Part shown: positions 2,448 to 20,502 of the stretch, in pieces | Position numbering within the stretch: position 1 is the stretch's first letter | Layout of the letters: every line of letters starts with the position of its first letter | Assembly: GCA_944363815.1 (NCBI GenBank) | Contig: CALVVI010000003.1 | Span: 1-32,765, forward strand | Length of the DNA stretch: 32,765 bases | Direction: 5' to 3' | DNA from: an uncultured Bacilli bacterium | Lineage (GTDB): Bacteria; Bacillota_I; Bacilli_A; RF39; UBA660 | The notes under the pieces: generated by a model | Told to the model about the DNA's origin: nothing | What the model saw: the letters and a program-made list of their open reading frames with translations, nothing else | The model's database searches: none | Translations under genes and position numbers: made by a program

Positions 2448-2778
2448 TAAGTTTTTAATAATAAAGTATCTTAAGAAATTTATTATTAGTATAGAAGCTA
2501 TTATAATGACTTTTCCCAAGAAAGATATAATAAGTAGGAATATGATATATAATGACTTATTAGAAGTATTAGAACTTATAATAATGGCTAATTATGAAGT
2601 AAACAAAGATGTTAAACATAATTATCAAATTAAAGCAATTGCTAAAATAAATAAGATAGATTTTTATTTAGAAAGAGCATATAAATTAAAGTATATTAGT
2701 GAAAAACAAGTAATAAATAAAAGTAATGAATTACTTAAAATTAATAAGATGTTATATAAGTGGTGTAGTAATGGATAA
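2440..2778 (+). CDS. avd: DGR accessory variability determinant (Avd-like)
   Basis: A 112-residue lysine-rich, almost wholly helical protein of the Avd / four-helix-bundle family (related to 23S rRNA intervening-sequence proteins). In the Bordetella phage system Avd forms a pentamer that binds the RT and TR RNA and is essential for cDNA synthesis. The C-terminal half carries the family pattern KIDFYLERAYKLKYISEKQV followed by a helix ending in a tryptophan (MLYKW). It overlaps the MSL gene by 8 bp and the RT gene by 8 bp, so the three proteins are probably translationally coupled. Identification rests on family pattern, length and position between MSL and RT. Confidence 0.82.
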   Translation: MNDKFLIIKYLKKFIISIEAIIMTFPKKDIISRNMIYNDLLEVLELIIMANYEVNKDVKHNYQIKAIAKINKIDFYLERAYKLKYISEKQVINKSNELLKINKMLYKWCSNG

Positions 2779-3832
2779 TATAACTATTAGTAATTTATTA
2801 AGTATTTATGATAAAGAAATAAGTAAGAATGTTAAGAATAAGAGAAAATTATATAATTTTGATGTAAATAAAATGCAAAATATTAGTAATATTAAAAGAA
2901 TGTTAGAAAGTGACAATGTTGGACACGATAAATATAATATATTTTTAATATATGAACCTAAGTGTCGATTAGTAATGTCATTAAGTATTAGAGATAAAAT
3001 AATTAATCATTATGTAACTAGGTATATATTAGAAAATAAATTAACTAAGTATTTAGATGATAGAAATGTTGCAACTAGAAAGAATATGGGAACTGATTAT
3101 GGAATTAGGTTAGTTAAGAAATATTTGATTAAGTTAAAAAGTAAATGTAAGAAGTTTTATATACTTAAACTTGATATAAGTAAGTATTTTTATAATATTG
3201 ATCATAAGGTATTATTAAGTATGTTAGCTGATAAATTAGATAGTAGAGAATATGAATTGATTAAAAGTATTATAGATAGTACTAATAGAGAGTATATTAA
3301 TGTAATAATAAATAATATTAAAGGTAGTAGAGATATACCATTATATGAATATGGTAAAGGTATTCCAATAGGTAATATGACTAGTCAGTTTTTAGCGATA
3401 TATTATTTAAGTAAGTTAGATTACTATATAATACATAATTTACATTTGAAGTATTATGTGAGGTATATGGATGACTTTGTAATAATGAGTGAAGATAAAA
3501 AGTATTTGGAAGAATGTAAGAGGGTAATTATTGATAAATTAAAAATAGAATATAAGTTAGATATTAATAAGAATAAAAGTAATATAGTTAGTTCTAAAGG
3601 TGGATTTAACTTTTTAGGATATGTATTTAAAGTAATAGATGATAAATTGATTATCACGCTTAGAAAATGTAATAGGGAGAAAATTAAGAAGAAGGTTAAG
3701 GAAGTAAGTTATTTAGTAAATAATAATAAACTAAGTTATTATAAAGCATTTTGTACTATTATGAATTATAAATATGGATTTAAGTATGCAAATAATCTTA
3801 AAGTAAGTAGGATAATAAGTAAGTATTTATGA
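2771..3832 (+). CDS. DGR reverse transcriptase
   Basis: A 353-residue RT that would copy TR RNA into adenine-mutated cDNA for homing into the VR. The start is ATG 2771, inside the end of avd; in-frame starts further upstream lie entirely within avd and are unlikely. Visible RT motifs: LDISKYF (about 134-140, first catalytic Asp at 135), GIPIGNMTSQ (about 197-206) and YMDD (about 232-235, the catalytic pair). The GNMTSQ form of motif 4, in place of QGxxxSP, is characteristic of DGR RTs and separates this from retron and group II intron enzymes. There is no maturase or endonuclease extension, as expected for a DGR RT. The gene ends in TGA, overlapped by the next start (ATGA). Confidence 0.95.
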   Translation: MDNITISNLLSIYDKEISKNVKNKRKLYNFDVNKMQNISNIKRMLESDNVGHDKYNIFLIYEPKCRLVMSLSIRDKIINHYVTRYILENKLTKYLDDRNVATRKNMGTDYGIRLVKKYLIKLKSKCKKFYILKLDISKYFYNIDHKVLLSMLADKLDSREYELIKSIIDSTNREYINVIINNIKGSRDIPLYEYGKGIPIGNMTSQFLAIYYLSKLDYYIIHNLHLKYYVRYMDDFVIMSEDKKYLEECKRVIIDKLKIEYKLDINKNKSNIVSSKGGFNFLGYVFKVIDDKLIITLRKCNREKIKKKVKEVSYLVNNNKLSYYKAFCTIMNYKYGFKYANNLKVSRIISKYL

Positions 3833-14853: not shown

Positions 14854-15738
14854 ATGAATTATTATAATGAAATAAAAAACGAACTAATAAATAATGAAAT
14901 AACCAAAAAAGTAAAAGATTATAGTAAAAACAGAAGTGATTTAACTACATATTACAATGTTGGCAAGTTGCTTAGTGAAGCAGGTAAGCGTTATGGTGAA
15001 GGTATTATTAAACAGTACTCAATAAAATTAACAAATGAACTAGGAAAAGGTTATACAATTACTAGACTAAAATATATGAGACGATATTATGAAGTGTTGA
15101 CAAAAGGTCCGACATTGTCGGACCTTTTGAGTTATTCACATTATTGTGAATTGATTTGGTTTGAAGATTTTAATAAAATAGAATATTATATAAAAATAAC
15201 TATTGAACAAAATTTATCTGTTAGACAGCTTCGGGAACGAATAAAAAATAAAGAATATGAAAGATTAGATGATATTACTAAAGAAAAATTAATATCTAAA
15301 AAAGTAACTACAGTAGAAGATTTTATTAAAAATCCTATTGTTATTAAAAATAACAATAATAGAGAAATTATTTCTGAAAAAGTATTGCAAAAGCTTATAC
15401 TTGAAAATCTTCCATTTTTTTTAAAAGAATTAGGTAATGGTTTTACATTTGTTGAAAATGAATACAAGATAAAAATAGGTAATAGCTATAATTATGTTGA
15501 TTTTTTACTATTTAATTATGAATTTAATTGTTTTGTAGTAGTTGAACTTAAAGTAACTGAACTTAAAAAAGAACATATAGGTCAAATAGAAGTATATATG
15601 AATTATATAGATAAAAACTTAAGAAAAATAACTCAATATAAAACTATAGGAATTATTATATGTAAGAAGGATAATAAATTTATCACGGAATATTGTAGTG
15701 ATTCTAGAATACTTAGTAAAGAATACAAACTGGTTTAG
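14854..15738 (+). CDS. PD-(D/E)XK nuclease, DUF1016/YhcG family, copy 1
   Basis: A 294-residue protein. The N-terminal part (about 1-80) is the DUF1016 helical domain (TTYYNVGKLLSEAGKRYGEG), a putative DNA-binding region. The C-terminal PD-(D/E)XK nuclease has the expected catalytic order: an Asp in SYNYVDFLLF, E-x-K in VVVELKVTELKKEHIGQ and a Gln soon after. Copies 1-3 are near-identical at both ends but differ in the middle (about residues 70-125). At codons about 83-93 the DNA holds a perfect 29-nt palindrome. AAGGAG precedes ATG 14854. The members are untested for most species; a role in defence or recombination is plausible but unproven. Confidence 0.85.
   Translation: MNYYNEIKNELINNEITKKVKDYSKNRSDLTTYYNVGKLLSEAGKRYGEGIIKQYSIKLTNELGKGYTITRLKYMRRYYEVLTKGPTLSDLLSYSHYCELIWFEDFNKIEYYIKITIEQNLSVRQLRERIKNKEYERLDDITKEKLISKKVTTVEDFIKNPIVIKNNNNREIISEKVLQKLILENLPFFLKELGNGFTFVENEYKIKIGNSYNYVDFLLFNYEFNCFVVVELKVTELKKEHIGQIEVYMNYIDKNLRKITQYKTIGIIICKKDNKFITEYCSDSRILSKEYKLV
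15101..15129. repeat. In-gene palindrome of nuclease copy 1
   Basis: CAAAAGGTCCGACA (15101-15114), one central T, then TGTCGGACCTTTTG (15116-15129): 14 of 14 pairs. It is centred on the first base of codon 88, encoding GPTLSDLL. Confidence 0.95.
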
Positions 15739-15747
15739 GGGGTACAA

Positions 15748-16629
15748 ATGAATTATTATAAGGAAATCAAAAATGAACTAATAAATAATGAAATAACTAA
15801 AAGAGTTAAAGATTATAGTAAAAATAGAAGTGACCTTACTGCTTACTATAATGTTGGCAAGTTACTTAGTGAAGCTGGTAAACATTATGGTGAAGGTGTT
15901 ATTAAAGAATATTCTGAAAAGTTAATTAAAGAACTTGGAAAAAAATATTCTTATAGATCACTAAATTATATGTTAAGATTTTATAATTTTCAAAATTTGC
16001 AGTCAATAACTGCAAATTTGACATGGGGACATTGGATTGAATTACTTTCAATTAAAGATATCAATAAGATAAAGTATTATATTAAACAATGTGAAAACCT
16101 GTTGTTAACGACTAGACAATTGCGTGAACGAATAAAAAATAAAGAATATGAAAGGTTAGATGAAGTTACCAAAAGTAAATTAATAGATGATGTTTCTCCA
16201 ACAATTGTAGACTTAATCAAAAATCCCATTGTTATAAAGAATAACAATAATAAAGAAATGCTTTCAGAGAAAGTGTTGCAAAAGATTATATTAGAAGATT
16301 TAGATGATTTCTTAAAAGAATTAGGTGATTCATTTTGTTATATTGCTAATGAATACAAAATAAAAATTGGTAATAGCTATAATTACATCGATTTACTCCT
16401 TTATAATATTAAATTTAATTGCTATGTTGTAGTAGAACTAAAAGTAACTGAACTTAAAAAAGAACATATTGGTCAAATAGAAGTATATATGAATTATATA
16501 GATAAAAACTTAAAAGGTGTTATGCAAGATAAAACAATTGGAATTATTATATGTAAGAAAGATAATAAATTTATAATGGAATATTGTAGTGATAAAAGAA
16601 TTTTAAGCAAAGAATATCAACTTATATAG
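15748..16629 (+). CDS. PD-(D/E)XK nuclease, DUF1016/YhcG family, copy 2
   Basis: A 293-residue paralogue of the genes on either side, 9 bp after copy 1, with GGGGG as ribosome-binding site. The domain order is the same. The catalytic segment reads SYNYIDLLLY, VVVELKVTELKKEH, then IGQIEVYMNY. The central region differs strongly (FQNLQSITANLTWGHWIELLS), and just after it the usual NLSVRQLRERI is replaced by NLLLTTRQLRERI. The linker VSPTIVDLIKNP also differs from the other two copies. The mosaic of conserved ends and variable centre is like specificity-determining proteins, but a recognition role is inference. Confidence 0.85.
   Translation: MNYYKEIKNELINNEITKRVKDYSKNRSDLTAYYNVGKLLSEAGKHYGEGVIKEYSEKLIKELGKKYSYRSLNYMLRFYNFQNLQSITANLTWGHWIELLSIKDINKIKYYIKQCENLLLTTRQLRERIKNKEYERLDEVTKSKLIDDVSPTIVDLIKNPIVIKNNNNKEMLSEKVLQKIILEDLDDFLKELGDSFCYIANEYKIKIGNSYNYIDLLLYNIKFNCYVVVELKVTELKKEHIGQIEVYMNYIDKNLKGVMQDKTIGIIICKKDNKFIMEYCSDKRILSKEYQLI
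15993..16019. repeat. In-gene palindrome of nuclease copy 2
   Basis: AAATTTGCAGTCA (15993-16005), central A at 16006, then TAACTGCAAATTT (16007-16019): 12 of 13 pairs. It encodes LQSITANL and is centred at the same aligned codon as in the other copies, with different arm sequence. Confidence 0.93.
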
Positions 16630-16636
16630 GAGGATT

Positions 16637-17527
16637 ATGAATTATTATAACGAAATAAAAAATGAATTAATAAATAATGAAATAACTAAAAGAGTAAAAG
16701 ATTATAGTAAGAATAGAAGTGACTTAACTACTTATTATAATGTAGGTAAGTTACTTAGTGATGCTGGTAAACATTATGGTGAAGGCGTTATTAAAGAATA
16801 TTCTGAAAAGTTAATTAAAGAACTTGGAAAAAAATATAGTATAAGAGTTTTATACAAGATGCTGAAATTTTATAATTTTATAACGGATAAAAAATTGCCG
16901 ACAGTGTCGGCAAAATTGACTTGGAGTCATTTTGATGAATTATTAAAACTTAAAAATATTAATTCGATATATTATTATATGTTAATATCTGATCAACAAA
17001 ATTTATCAGTAAGACAACTTCGTGAACGAATTAAAAATAAGGAATATGAAAGATTAGATGATATTACTAAAGAAAAATTAATGTCTAAAAAAGTAACTAC
17101 AGTAGAAGATTTTATTAAAAATCCTATTGTTATAAAAAATTCCATTAATAAAGAAATAATTTCTGAAAAAGCATTGCAAAGAATTATTATGGAAGATTTA
17201 CCATCTTTTTTAAAAGAACTAGGTAATGGTTTTACATTTGTTGAAAATGAGTACAAAATAAGAATAGGTAATAGTTACAATTACATTGATTTATTACTTT
17301 ATAATATTAAATTGAATTGTTATGTAGTTGTAGAACTTAAAGTAACTGAACTTAAAAAAGAACATATTGGTCAAATAGAAGTATATATGAATTATATAGA
17401 TAAAAACTTAAAAGATATTATGCAAGATAAAACAATTGGAATTATCATATGTAAGAAAGATAATAAATTTATTATGGAATATTGTAGTGATAAAAGAATA
17501 TTAAATAAAGAATATAAATTTGTATAG
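16637..17527 (+). CDS. PD-(D/E)XK nuclease, DUF1016/YhcG family, copy 3
   Basis: A 296-residue third tandem paralogue, 7 bp after copy 2, with AGGAGG before the ATG. The ends are almost those of copies 1 and 2. The centre is KLPTVSAKLTWSHFDELLKL, the closest of the three to the usual DUF1016 text (P-T-x-S-A-x-L-x-W-S-H). Its C-terminal half is like copy 2 (LLLYNIKLNCYVVVELK), whereas the segment after the centre (NLSVRQLRERI, KKVTTVEDFIKNP) is like copy 1. It thus looks like a recombinant of the two. The nuclease residues are intact. Confidence 0.85.
   Translation: MNYYNEIKNELINNEITKRVKDYSKNRSDLTTYYNVGKLLSDAGKHYGEGVIKEYSEKLIKELGKKYSIRVLYKMLKFYNFITDKKLPTVSAKLTWSHFDELLKLKNINSIYYYMLISDQQNLSVRQLRERIKNKEYERLDDITKEKLMSKKVTTVEDFIKNPIVIKNSINKEIISEKALQRIIMEDLPSFLKELGNGFTFVENEYKIRIGNSYNYIDLLLYNIKLNCYVVVELKVTELKKEHIGQIEVYMNYIDKNLKDIMQDKTIGIIICKKDNKFIMEYCSDKRILNKEYKFV
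16895..16913. repeat. In-gene palindrome of nuclease copy 3
   Basis: TTGCCGACA (16895-16903), central G, then TGTCGGCAA (16905-16913): 9 of 9 pairs, with A+T pairs resuming two bases further out. Centred on the first base of the codon aligned with codon 88 of copy 1. Confidence 0.93.
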
Positions 17528-17559
17528 AAAAAACAGATTAAATGAATGGAGGTAATTTA

Positions 17560-18885
17560 ATGTTAGATGTTATTGAAGATATAAGAAATGAATTTAAAAT
17601 AAAATTAACTGATGATTTAGAAAAAGAAGTAATTGCTTTTTTAAATACTCAAGGAGGCAATATATTTATTGGAGTTGATGATACTGGTAATGTTGTTGGG
17701 CTTAATTTAGATGTAGATTTGTTACAAAGAACAATAAAGGATCGTATTAAAGATAATATTATGCCATCAACAATAGGTTTATATGATGTTGCAGTATTAG
17801 ATTATGAAGATAAAAAATATATTAAAATAATTGTTGCTAGGGGAGTAGAAAGACCATATTATTTAAAAGGGATGGGGATGACTCCAGAAAGTTGTTTTAT
17901 GCGTGTTGGTAGTGCAGTTCAAAGTATGCCATATGATATTATAAATAATACTTTTGTAAAAAGGGTTAGAAATTCATTAAAGAAAATAGAATCTCCAGAG
18001 CAGGATTTATCTTTTACGCAATTGAAAATATATTATGAAGAGAAAAAAATTATTGTTAATGATAATTTTTTGAGGCAGTTAGGTTTTTTCACAGATGATG
18101 GTTTATATAATATGAATGCATTTTTGCTTTCTGATAATAACAATATTCCCATTAGATTTGGAAAATATAGTGGGACACAAGCAATTGATTTGATAGAAAA
18201 TGAAGATTTCGGTTGTTGTTCTATTGTTAAGGCAACTAAAAGTATGTTAGAGAAACTAAAGATAGAAAATAAAATATATACTAAAGTAGGGTATCCACAG
18301 AGGAAAGAAATTGAAATGTTTGATTTTGATGCAGTTAGAGAAGCGGTCATTAATGCTATTGTTCATAATGATTGGGCGAATGGTTATGCTCCAAAAGTAG
18401 AAATGTTTAGTGATAGGTTAGCAGTATCATCAAATGGTGGTATACAAGATAATATAACTGAGGAAGATTTTTTAAAGGGATTTTCTTTGCCTAAAAATCC
18501 TGAGTTAATGAAAGTATTTAGAGATTTGGAATTAGTAGAACAAATGGGTACTGGAATTATTAGAATTCTTAAAAGTTATTCTAAGCAATCTTTTGAATTT
18601 TTCCCAAATTTTATAAGAGTCAGTTTTCCCTTTAAGAAAAACAAATTTGATGAATCAAAGAAAATGGAGTTTAAAGATAAAGTTAATTTATCTATTACGC
18701 AGCAAGCAATTGTTAAATTAATGAGTGATAATCCTAGAATTACTCAAAAAGAGTTAGCTAGACTTTTAGATATTACAGTTAGAGCAATACAAAAAAATAT
18801 AAAGTCCCTTATTGATTTAGGTGTAATTCAAAGATGGGGATCAGATAGAAAGGGAAAATGGAAAATCAATTCTAATAATTTATAG
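17560..18885 (+). CDS. AlbA_2-domain ATP-binding protein (RecG-related/Schlafen-type)
   Basis: A 441-residue protein. The start is ATG 17560, with GGAGG at correct spacing; the upstream ATG at 17542 overlaps that site. The N-terminal AlbA_2 domain reads EFKIKLTDDLEKEVIAFLNTQGG, then NIFIGVDDTGNVVGL (about 9-50). A GHKL-like ATP-binding part follows with REAVINAIVHNDW (near residues 263-275) and LVEQMGTGI. The C-terminal winged helix carries ITQKELARLLDITVRAIQK. Such proteins often act as transcription regulators or defence accessories; none is assigned here. It lies 32 bp after the nuclease array and could be its last cistron. Confidence 0.85.
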   Translation: MLDVIEDIRNEFKIKLTDDLEKEVIAFLNTQGGNIFIGVDDTGNVVGLNLDVDLLQRTIKDRIKDNIMPSTIGLYDVAVLDYEDKKYIKIIVARGVERPYYLKGMGMTPESCFMRVGSAVQSMPYDIINNTFVKRVRNSLKKIESPEQDLSFTQLKIYYEEKKIIVNDNFLRQLGFFTDDGLYNMNAFLLSDNNNIPIRFGKYSGTQAIDLIENEDFGCCSIVKATKSMLEKLKIENKIYTKVGYPQRKEIEMFDFDAVREAVINAIVHNDWANGYAPKVEMFSDRLAVSSNGGIQDNITEEDFLKGFSLPKNPELMKVFRDLELVEQMGTGIIRILKSYSKQSFEFFPNFIRVSFPFKKNKFDESKKMEFKDKVNLSITQQAIVKLMSDNPRITQKELARLLDITVRAIQKNIKSLIDLGVIQRWGSDRKGKWKINSNNL

Positions 18886-18902
18886 TATTAGAATTGATTT
18901 TC
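18861..18902 (+). terminator. Long hairpin overlapping the end of the AlbA_2 gene
   Basis: A perfect 17-bp stem: arms 18861-18877 and 18886-18902 (core ATCAATTCTAATA / TATTAGAATTGAT) with an 8-nt loop that contains the stop codon. The T-run is short (TTTT), so it may act as a terminator or mRNA stabiliser. Confidence 0.65.
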
Positions 18903-19051
18903 TACGAACTTTTCTACGAACTTTTCTACGAACTTTTCTACGAACTTTTCTACGAACTTTTCTACGAACTTTTCTACGAACTTTTCTACGAACTTTCTTA
19001 CGAACTTTTCTACGAACTTTCTTGCGAACTTTCTTACGAACTTTCTTACGA
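18901..19051. repeat. 12-bp minisatellite array
   Basis: Twelve tandem units of TCTACGAACTTT run from 18901 to 19044, plus a partial unit. The left eight are identical; units 9, 11 and 12 begin CTT, and unit 11 has TTGCGAA, so variation accumulates at the right end. Being a multiple of three, it stays open in several frames: FYEL on the plus strand and KFVE/KFVR on the minus strand. No reliable start or ribosome-binding site makes any of these a likely gene. The first unit is fused to the hairpin arm at 18861-18902. Confidence 0.95.
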
Positions 19052-19477: not shown

Positions 19478-20502
19478 ATGAATTTAAAATTGAATGTCAA
19501 AAAGAGAAGAGCGGTAATTATAGTAAGCGCACTAGTTTTATTTATTGGTATGCCAATGTAACAGCAGATACAACAGATAACCTACGATTTAATGTAGATA
19601 AAGATATTTATTTAAATCCAACCCAATTTAATGTAGTTGAAGGTGGAGATAATTTATCAGATACAGCAGTAGGAACAGCAACCCTTCTTGCTAATTCAAC
19701 TACTAATAATTTTTCCACAACATATTATGTTTATTTTCAAATAAATTCTAATAATTATATTTATACAACAGAAGAACAAACACCAGAAATAATTTTAACT
19801 ATAACTAATCCAAATGGAGAAGAAGTAACAAGTGTAGATGGACTAGATTATATAGATTCAGGAGAAGTAACAGGATTTGATATAACAACCAAAACAGGAT
19901 TTTATAATATTGCAGAATTATATGAGATAACATCAGCATCAAGTATAAATGCAACAAAACAAGAATGGACATTTACAGTAACATTTATGAATTTAGATAC
20001 AAATCAAGCTGAAAATGGAGGAAAAACTTTAGAAGCAGAAATTATATTAAGTAGAGAAGAAAAGGTAACCCTTGCAAATTATATAATAGACAATGTATAT
20101 GTAGAAGATGGAGTAAACGGATTATATTACCATGATGGAGTTGGAACATATACAAATGCAGAATTAGAAGCTGAGGATAATGCATATCGATTTGCAGGTG
20201 GAGATTATGAAATAACTGATTCACATTTAGATACATATAGTCATATATATAATGAAATTGTTTTAGCAAATTGTGATAATGAATTACAATCAATTGGTAA
20301 TGTGGATTGCGATTCTGGTAATTTATATTTTACGTTAGCGTACGATTCGTCAAGAACTCAATATTCCACAATGGAAAGTGCATTAGAAAAGGCTATAGAG
20401 GAAGGATATATAACGAAAAATAACGTTAAAAATAATATTCTAATTTATCTGTTTGAACAGATAATTTCGCATTGCTTAAAAAAATTTAATCTATCGACTT
20501 AG
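19478..20502 (+). pseudogene. Broken paralogue of the DGR target protein
   Basis: With AGGAG before ATG 19478, the gene begins MNLKLNVKKRRAVIIVSALV, then shifts frame inside the membrane segment and stops at 19559-19561. The remainder continues in another frame as YWYANVTADTTDNLRFNV. It aligns with the DGR target through its ectodomain (TTYYVYFQINSNN, SGEVTGFDITTKTG, YEITSASS, VTFMNLDTNQAENGG, LYYHDGVGTYTNAE). After about 20230 the homology ends, the lectin-like C-terminus is missing and the frame closes at 20502. The lesion is a deletion of one (or one plus a multiple of three) bases in or near 19525-19545. No VR is present. An ATG at 19987 opens a fragment but has no good start site. Confidence 0.85.

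Follow-up and report, generated by a model that had tools for sequence, protein, structure and literature searches.

Palindromes that lie near or flank the gene for a DNA-acting enzyme are known from REP elements and their RAYT genes. In Rickettsia, palindromic elements are repeated selfish elements of ~100-150 nt that occupy many genes (PMC4316617), and in lambda the origin (ori-lambda) lies inside gene O, where 19-bp iterons serve replication initiation (PMC4488673). For ParB and Noc, crystal structures of the ParB-parS and Noc-NBS complexes place residue 201 at the inner base and the recognition-helix residue 173 at the outer base, and ParB G201 and R173 account for the differences in base-specific readout between the two proteins (PMC7383237). 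In the open-access literature that we searched, no earlier report of in-gene self-sites was found.

The window (the whole stretch of DNA that was analysed, 32,765 nucleotides from an uncultured Bacilli bacterium with a 1.1-Mb genome) holds three tandem DUF1016/YhcG nuclease genes, all three with both PF17761 (DUF1016_N) and PF06250 (YhcG_C) above the Pfam cut-off (Table 1). There were 11 DUF1016_N matches in the genome as a whole. In the alignment of the family, the PD-(D/E)XK residues E177, D218, and K235 were invariant and E233 was present in at least 90% of sequences, the motif being that given in PMC1189080. The HMM of PDC-S02, under which PADLOC lists the DUF1016 family as a candidate defence system of one gene, matched copy 1 (E 6.6e-61), copy 3 (E 4.4e-62), and E. 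coli YhcG (E 2.2e-131).

Other features of these neighbourhoods may be recorded here. Directly 3' of the three nucleases, at 17542-18885, lies a Schlafen AlbA_2/HATPase_c_4/HTH regulator that is possibly part of the same operon, and after this AlbA gene, at 18900-19050, comes an array of some twelve short tandem repeats (tacgaacttttc). A reverse-transcriptase-like ORF (YVRYMDDF; 2726-3832) stands downstream of a secreted-looking protein (139-1632) with a repeat-rich C-terminus (VVRPSFSL); the arrangement resembles a diversity-generating retroelement, and 19987-20502 encodes a shorter protein related to the target. At plasmid type I restriction-modification loci, a DUF1016 gene was located between hsdM and hsdS (L126 2920-3954; L132 2908-3957).

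Each of the three nuclease genes contains its own palindrome. The initial annotation had placed all three on the first base of the same aligned codon, with different arms, and the placement was confirmed together with the pairing listed in Table 1: the codon is that of residue 88 in copy 1, 87 in copy 2, and 90 in copy 3, and it stands six residues N-terminal to the W/Y of the [W/Y]-x-H motif. Among the nine DUF1016 copies of this genome with a readable codon, the window copies included, the arms were mutually different, and the majority were well paired at the codon, a few only in part.

Table 1. Coordinates of the three nuclease genes, their putative self-sites, and the helices predicted to read them (positions in the window; residue numbers refer to the encoded proteins)
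Feature	Position	Strand	Details
DUF1016/YhcG nuclease copy 1 (294 aa)	14854..15738	+	Pfam PF17761 1.3e-22, PF06250 2.8e-33
Recognition helix, copy 1 (residues 68-77, TITRLKYMRR)	15055..15084	+	T70/k7=T, K73/k8=G fit the code
Self-site of copy 1 (putative)	15101..15129	.	CAAAAGGTCCGACA-T-TGTCGGACCTTTTG, 14/14 pairs, centre 15115
ParB GHAR-like helix, copy 1 (LSYSHYCELI)	15127..15156	+	E99, equivalent to copy-3 E101, with k4=G; Spo0J alignment, k3/k4 coupling
DUF1016/YhcG nuclease copy 2 (293 aa)	15748..16629	+	Pfam PF17761 6.2e-22, PF06250 2e-35
Recognition helix, copy 2 (SYRSLNYMLR)	15949..15978	+	S68/k6=C, R70/k7=G, N73/k8=T, Y74/k5=A fit the code
Self-site of copy 2 (putative)	15993..16019	.	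AAATTTGCAGTCA-A-TAACTGCAAATTT, 12/13 pairs, centre 16006
ParB GHAR-like helix, copy 2 (TWGHWIELL)	16021..16047	+	Alignment, coupling
DUF1016/YhcG nuclease copy 3 (296 aa)	16637..17527	+	Pfam PF17761 2.4e-22, PF06250 2.4e-36
Recognition helix, copy 3 (SIRVLYKMLK)	16838..16867	+	S68/k6=C, R70/k7=G, Y73/k8=T, K74/k5=C fit the code
Self-site of copy 3 (putative)	16895..16913	.	TTGCCGACA-G-TGTCGGCAA, 9/9 pairs, centre 16904
ParB GHAR-like helix, copy 3 (TWSHFDELL)	16919..16945	+	Residues 97, 100, 101 couple to k3/k4

To see how widely the trait occurs, DUF1016 genes were gathered from the same phylum, 80 genome contigs, plasmids, phages, E. coli, and viral contigs, and 140 distinct loci (37-mers) were compared with 500 synonymous shuffles that kept both protein and codon usage. 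The palindrome excess at the aligned codon was large, with a mean pairing of 7.95 of 9 against 4.29 ± 0.10 in the shuffles (maximum 4.61), and at least 8 of 9 pairs in 108 of the 140 genes against 1.2 expected (shuffle maximum 5). At other offsets the same level of pairing was reached in just 13 of 13,440 cases, with nothing at neighbouring offsets. Divergent genes were drawn from viral contigs and from plasmids of several phyla, with E. coli yhcG included; in 61 of these 71 the best palindrome was again odd-centred and had the first codon base at its centre. The divergent set was limited to genes whose best in-gene palindrome had at least 7 of 8 pairs. The layout of the site consists of CA/TG at k1-k2, which gives a CA-N-TG centre, and of arm positions k3-k8 that are free yet symmetric. 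The earlier observation that both arms change together extends to the whole family, for which we counted 97 different k3-k8 arm cores in 189 genes. The in-gene palindrome is real and family-wide across phyla.

The arms also follow particular residues of the encoded protein. When protein columns were tested against the arms at given overall identity, a design that stops short of a full phylogenetic model, the ten most strongly coupled columns were 101, 70, 68, 129, 100, 119, 74, 125, 73, and 97 (copy-3 numbering). All ten fall in the recognition helix or in later helices of the same DNA-binding domain, the nuclease domain contributing no column, and in 213 control windows two at most of the top ten fell in that residue set. 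Coupling was near zero at residues such as 78-81 and 102-118, and the arm coupling is therefore not simple linkage. The palindrome had been described as lying in the one region where the three proteins diverge; this region does diverge, but so do the recognition helix and, beyond the palindrome, the helices that follow, in step with the arms.

By position, k3 goes with residues 125/97, k4 with 101/129, k5 with 74, k6 with 68, k7 with 70, and k8 with 73/76. Arg70 was accompanied by G at k7 in 53 of 54 Bacilli genes and 22 of 23 divergent genes, Thr70 by T at k7 in 38 of 41, and Lys or Arg at 125 by C at k3 in 20 of 21 Bacilli genes. Trained on Bacilli and applied to 50 divergent genes, the code scored +1.69 bits per site against -3.37 ± 0.44 for permuted pairings, none of 2000 being as good, and its prediction for the same genes was lost when the assignment of residues to bases was scrambled. 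These computations support the conclusions that the in-gene site evolves together with the residues by which the encoded protein reads DNA, and that the site acts at the level of DNA.

Because the nuclease domain dominated a fold search with the whole protein, the N-terminal domain was modelled on its own (AF2; pLDDT 90), which placed the recognition helix at residues 69-84. The 12 best structural matches of this model were all ParB/Noc proteins (Z 8.4-9.7; next match 4.9), among them the DNA complexes 4umk, 6y93, and 6t1f, with the structure tool's caution that helical folds may reach such Z through a common arrangement. Independently of the model, a profile search of the PDB matched Spo0J/ParB (6sdk, E 0.0028) over residues 57-132, with LSWSHY of DUF1016 aligned to the LSMGHG motif of Spo0J (LSMGHGRTLL). 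Judged from model and alignment, DUF1016_N is a ParB/Noc-like DNA-binding domain. The two have in common the fold, an HTH with a GHAR-type helix, a short palindromic site, and specificity residues in equivalent places, residue 97 corresponding to ParB G201 (PMC7383237), and the arm coupling shows the same inner/outer order as the ParB and Noc structures. They differ in that parS and NBS are 16-bp, even-centred sites and parS is nearly universal, whereas the DUF1016 site is odd-centred on CA-N-TG and its arms are hypervariable. DUF1016 is moreover fused to a PD-(D/E)XK nuclease, unlike ParB, and the copies have no Pfam ParBc match to an N-terminal ParB CTPase domain, DUF1016_N and the nuclease being the only domains found. 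We do not assign the DUF1016 protein to the ParB family, in spite of its modelled ParB-type fold and probable ParB-like action at DNA, because it has neither a Pfam ParBc domain nor a 16-bp even-centred site.

Based on these sequence comparisons and models, the palindrome is very probably the DNA-binding site of the protein that it helps to encode. The proposal of a self-target site in the initial annotation stands as far as a self-recognised DNA site is meant, given the covariation of the arms with DNA-reading residues and the family-wide excess. For the explanation as a whole, a ParB-like nuclease with an in-gene cognate site that has a role in cis, we estimate a probability of roughly 0.85. 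By analogy, lambda O with ori-lambda would be the nearest known arrangement, as a DNA-binding protein with repeated cognate sites in its own coding sequence (PMC4488673); the 19-bp replication iterons of lambda nevertheless differ from the one palindrome at a fixed codon of a nuclease gene, and the comparison is one of arrangement.

On this explanation, DUF1016/YhcG would be a sequence-specific DNA-binding nuclease made up of a ParB/Noc-like N-terminal domain and a PD-(D/E)XK domain. Two copies of the HTH domain would read the two half-sites, with their CA-N-TG centre and variable k3-k8; we infer dimer binding from the palindromic form of the site and from ParB, which itself binds as a dimer. 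The short loop between the recognition helix and the next helix presumably tolerates many sequences, so that a palindrome could be written there in the DNA, and a change in the specificity residues would bring a change of both arms along with it. Binding inside the gene would serve that gene in cis, most likely by restraining its own nuclease, with the bound site as a roadblock some 260 bp from the start of the gene and, in some cases, additional sites in the flanks. Gene and operator would then move together in horizontal transfer, and tandem paralogs would not cross-regulate one another. Autorepression by such a roadblock would fit the cis-only distribution of the sites and the need to restrain a nuclease. 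Most genes have the in-gene site alone and no promoter site, which counts against autoregulation, and we give even odds that it is the main role.

The distribution of further copies bears on this role. The initial annotation had suggested looking for the same arms elsewhere in the host, and for the three window sites none were found: the 17-bp core of copy 1 had no second match in the 1.1-Mb genome with up to two mismatches allowed, and the cores of copies 2 and 3 each matched only their own gene. Cognate sites in the flanks were mostly absent, with clear cases only in L087, L042, L130, and E. coli. In L087, three extra intergenic copies with the gene's own arms stand at 38-bp spacing just upstream of it, and the rest of that genome has none. 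In E. coli, yhcG contains one to three in-gene sites and one about 30 bp downstream, with CAGACANTGTCTG common to them; the K-12 gene has three in-frame tandem palindromes at 39-bp spacing that agree with CAGACANTGTCTG but for single changes beside the centre. Lying as they do in their own gene or directly beside it (window copies, L087, E. coli), the sites are therefore local to the gene. Second sites at another codon were seen in L178 (residue 67), L209 (residue 78), and L192 (residue 179), and arm identity was only modestly higher between two sites of one gene than between genes (0.50 against 0.40, P 0.08). In some palindromes, above all those of E. coli, arms of 12-17 extend the pairing well past the 8 bp accounted for by the coupled residues; this is more pairing than a simple dimer site requires and, like the modest difference in arm identity, counts against the reading as the protein's own binding site.

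Several of these loci vary in other respects. Among the E. coli yhcG alleles (L121 5828-6955, L140, L144), palindromic 39-bp units have been gained or lost in frame, with three in K-12 and one in 28RC1, and L144 has a divergent allele whose frame is broken around the recognition helix. Two yhcG-less E. coli strains have retained a single palindrome in the gltD-nanQ interval (L143 1001-1031; L211 701-728), which in L143 reads ATAAATTCGCCAGACAGTGTCTGGCGAATTTAT, has the same core as the yhcG sites, and may be a deletion scar or an independent element. In L192, the sites at residues 118 and 179 (CTCTCAGCA/TGCTGAGAG and CTCTCATCA/TGATGAGAG) differ at k3 only, both arms having changed.

The strongest alternative has the self-binding step in common with our explanation and differs in what the binding does: the protein would cut or nick its cognate sites, including those in its own gene or in incoming copies. 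Each variant would act only on its own copies, site and specificity staying in lockstep, with the result that the gene would limit itself, paralogs would undergo gene conversion, or related (sister) elements would be excluded. The conserved PD-(D/E)XK residues, the different sites in paralogs of one genome, the lone gltD-nanQ palindrome in strains without yhcG, and the PDC-S02 classification all agree with such cleavage, but a nuclease with an intact target in its own gene would destroy that gene unless its cutting were gated. Nor did the viral contigs show enrichment of sites outside DUF1016 genes (two arm types, small samples). Of the five viral contigs that matched the 19-bp pattern GTGCAGACANTGTCTGCAC, three did so within DUF1016 genes. 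The 17-bp pattern TGCCGACANTGTCGGCA matched 19 viral contigs, once close to a broken DUF1016 gene and never within one; the collection is big enough for matches to TGCCGACANTGTCGGCA to arise by chance or at terminators. We consider self-directed cleavage unlikely on balance.

A mobile or selfish palindromic element that inserts into DUF1016 genes and their flanks, as proposed earlier by comparison with Rickettsia, is improbable as a general explanation. The Rickettsia elements resemble these sites as palindromic DNA that leaves the reading frame unbroken, and the in-frame tandem copies of K-12, the 38-bp spacing upstream of L087, and the lone palindromes of the yhcG-less strains would all suit mobility. 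The DUF1016 sites, however, are 17-27 bp long rather than ~100-150 nt and repeated, belong to one gene family, have no shared element sequence, as the number of arm cores attests, and occupy the homologous codon in nearly all members across phyla instead of scattered insertion points. The REP/RAYT systems likewise place palindromes around a gene whose product acts on DNA, much as E. coli yhcG is flanked, but the DUF1016 enzyme is a PD-(D/E)XK nuclease, the sites are in the gene, and they are undispersed in the two genomes searched genome-wide: no further copies of the three sites in the window's genome, and in G245 four copies at one locus only. Insertion would also leave the code between arms and HTH residues unexplained.

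The remaining alternatives are very improbable. An mRNA hairpin limiting translation or mRNA stability, in which only pairing would matter and the arms would drift together, had been suggested initially, and an RNA helix would indeed be expected to leave arms that pair almost perfectly while their sequence is free to vary. A selected RNA helix is expected to tolerate G·U more than A·C, but the interior stem mismatches at k2-k8 were 14 G·T against 24 A·C, with no wobble excess, a result that is suggestive when taken alone. The arms moreover co-vary with HTH residues at least 20 codons away through a position-specific code that holds across phyla, intergenic copies exist (L087, E. coli), and there was no Rfam match; on the mismatch types and the HTH coupling we rejected the hairpin. 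Template-switch mutation at quasi-palindromes produces concerted arm change and could in principle have matched the arms without selection, but it would leave unexplained why one codon of one family is affected across phyla, and why the bases are coupled to residues in a manner that matches the ParB-DNA interface.

YhcG/DUF1016 proteins are among the last widespread uncharacterised nucleases, and the family, which includes E. coli yhcG, is a candidate defence gene. If the self-site reading is true, thousands of family members would reveal their DNA targets in their own gene sequences, with no experiment needed, and the ParB fold would gain a large natural collection of proteins paired with the DNA that they recognise, from which recognition codes might be learned. 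It would also show clearly how one binding site can evolve under an amino-acid code and an operator code at once. The palindrome would then be a portable cis operator or self-target, and a self-targeting, self-diversifying nuclease family would represent a new kind of genetic self-recognition.
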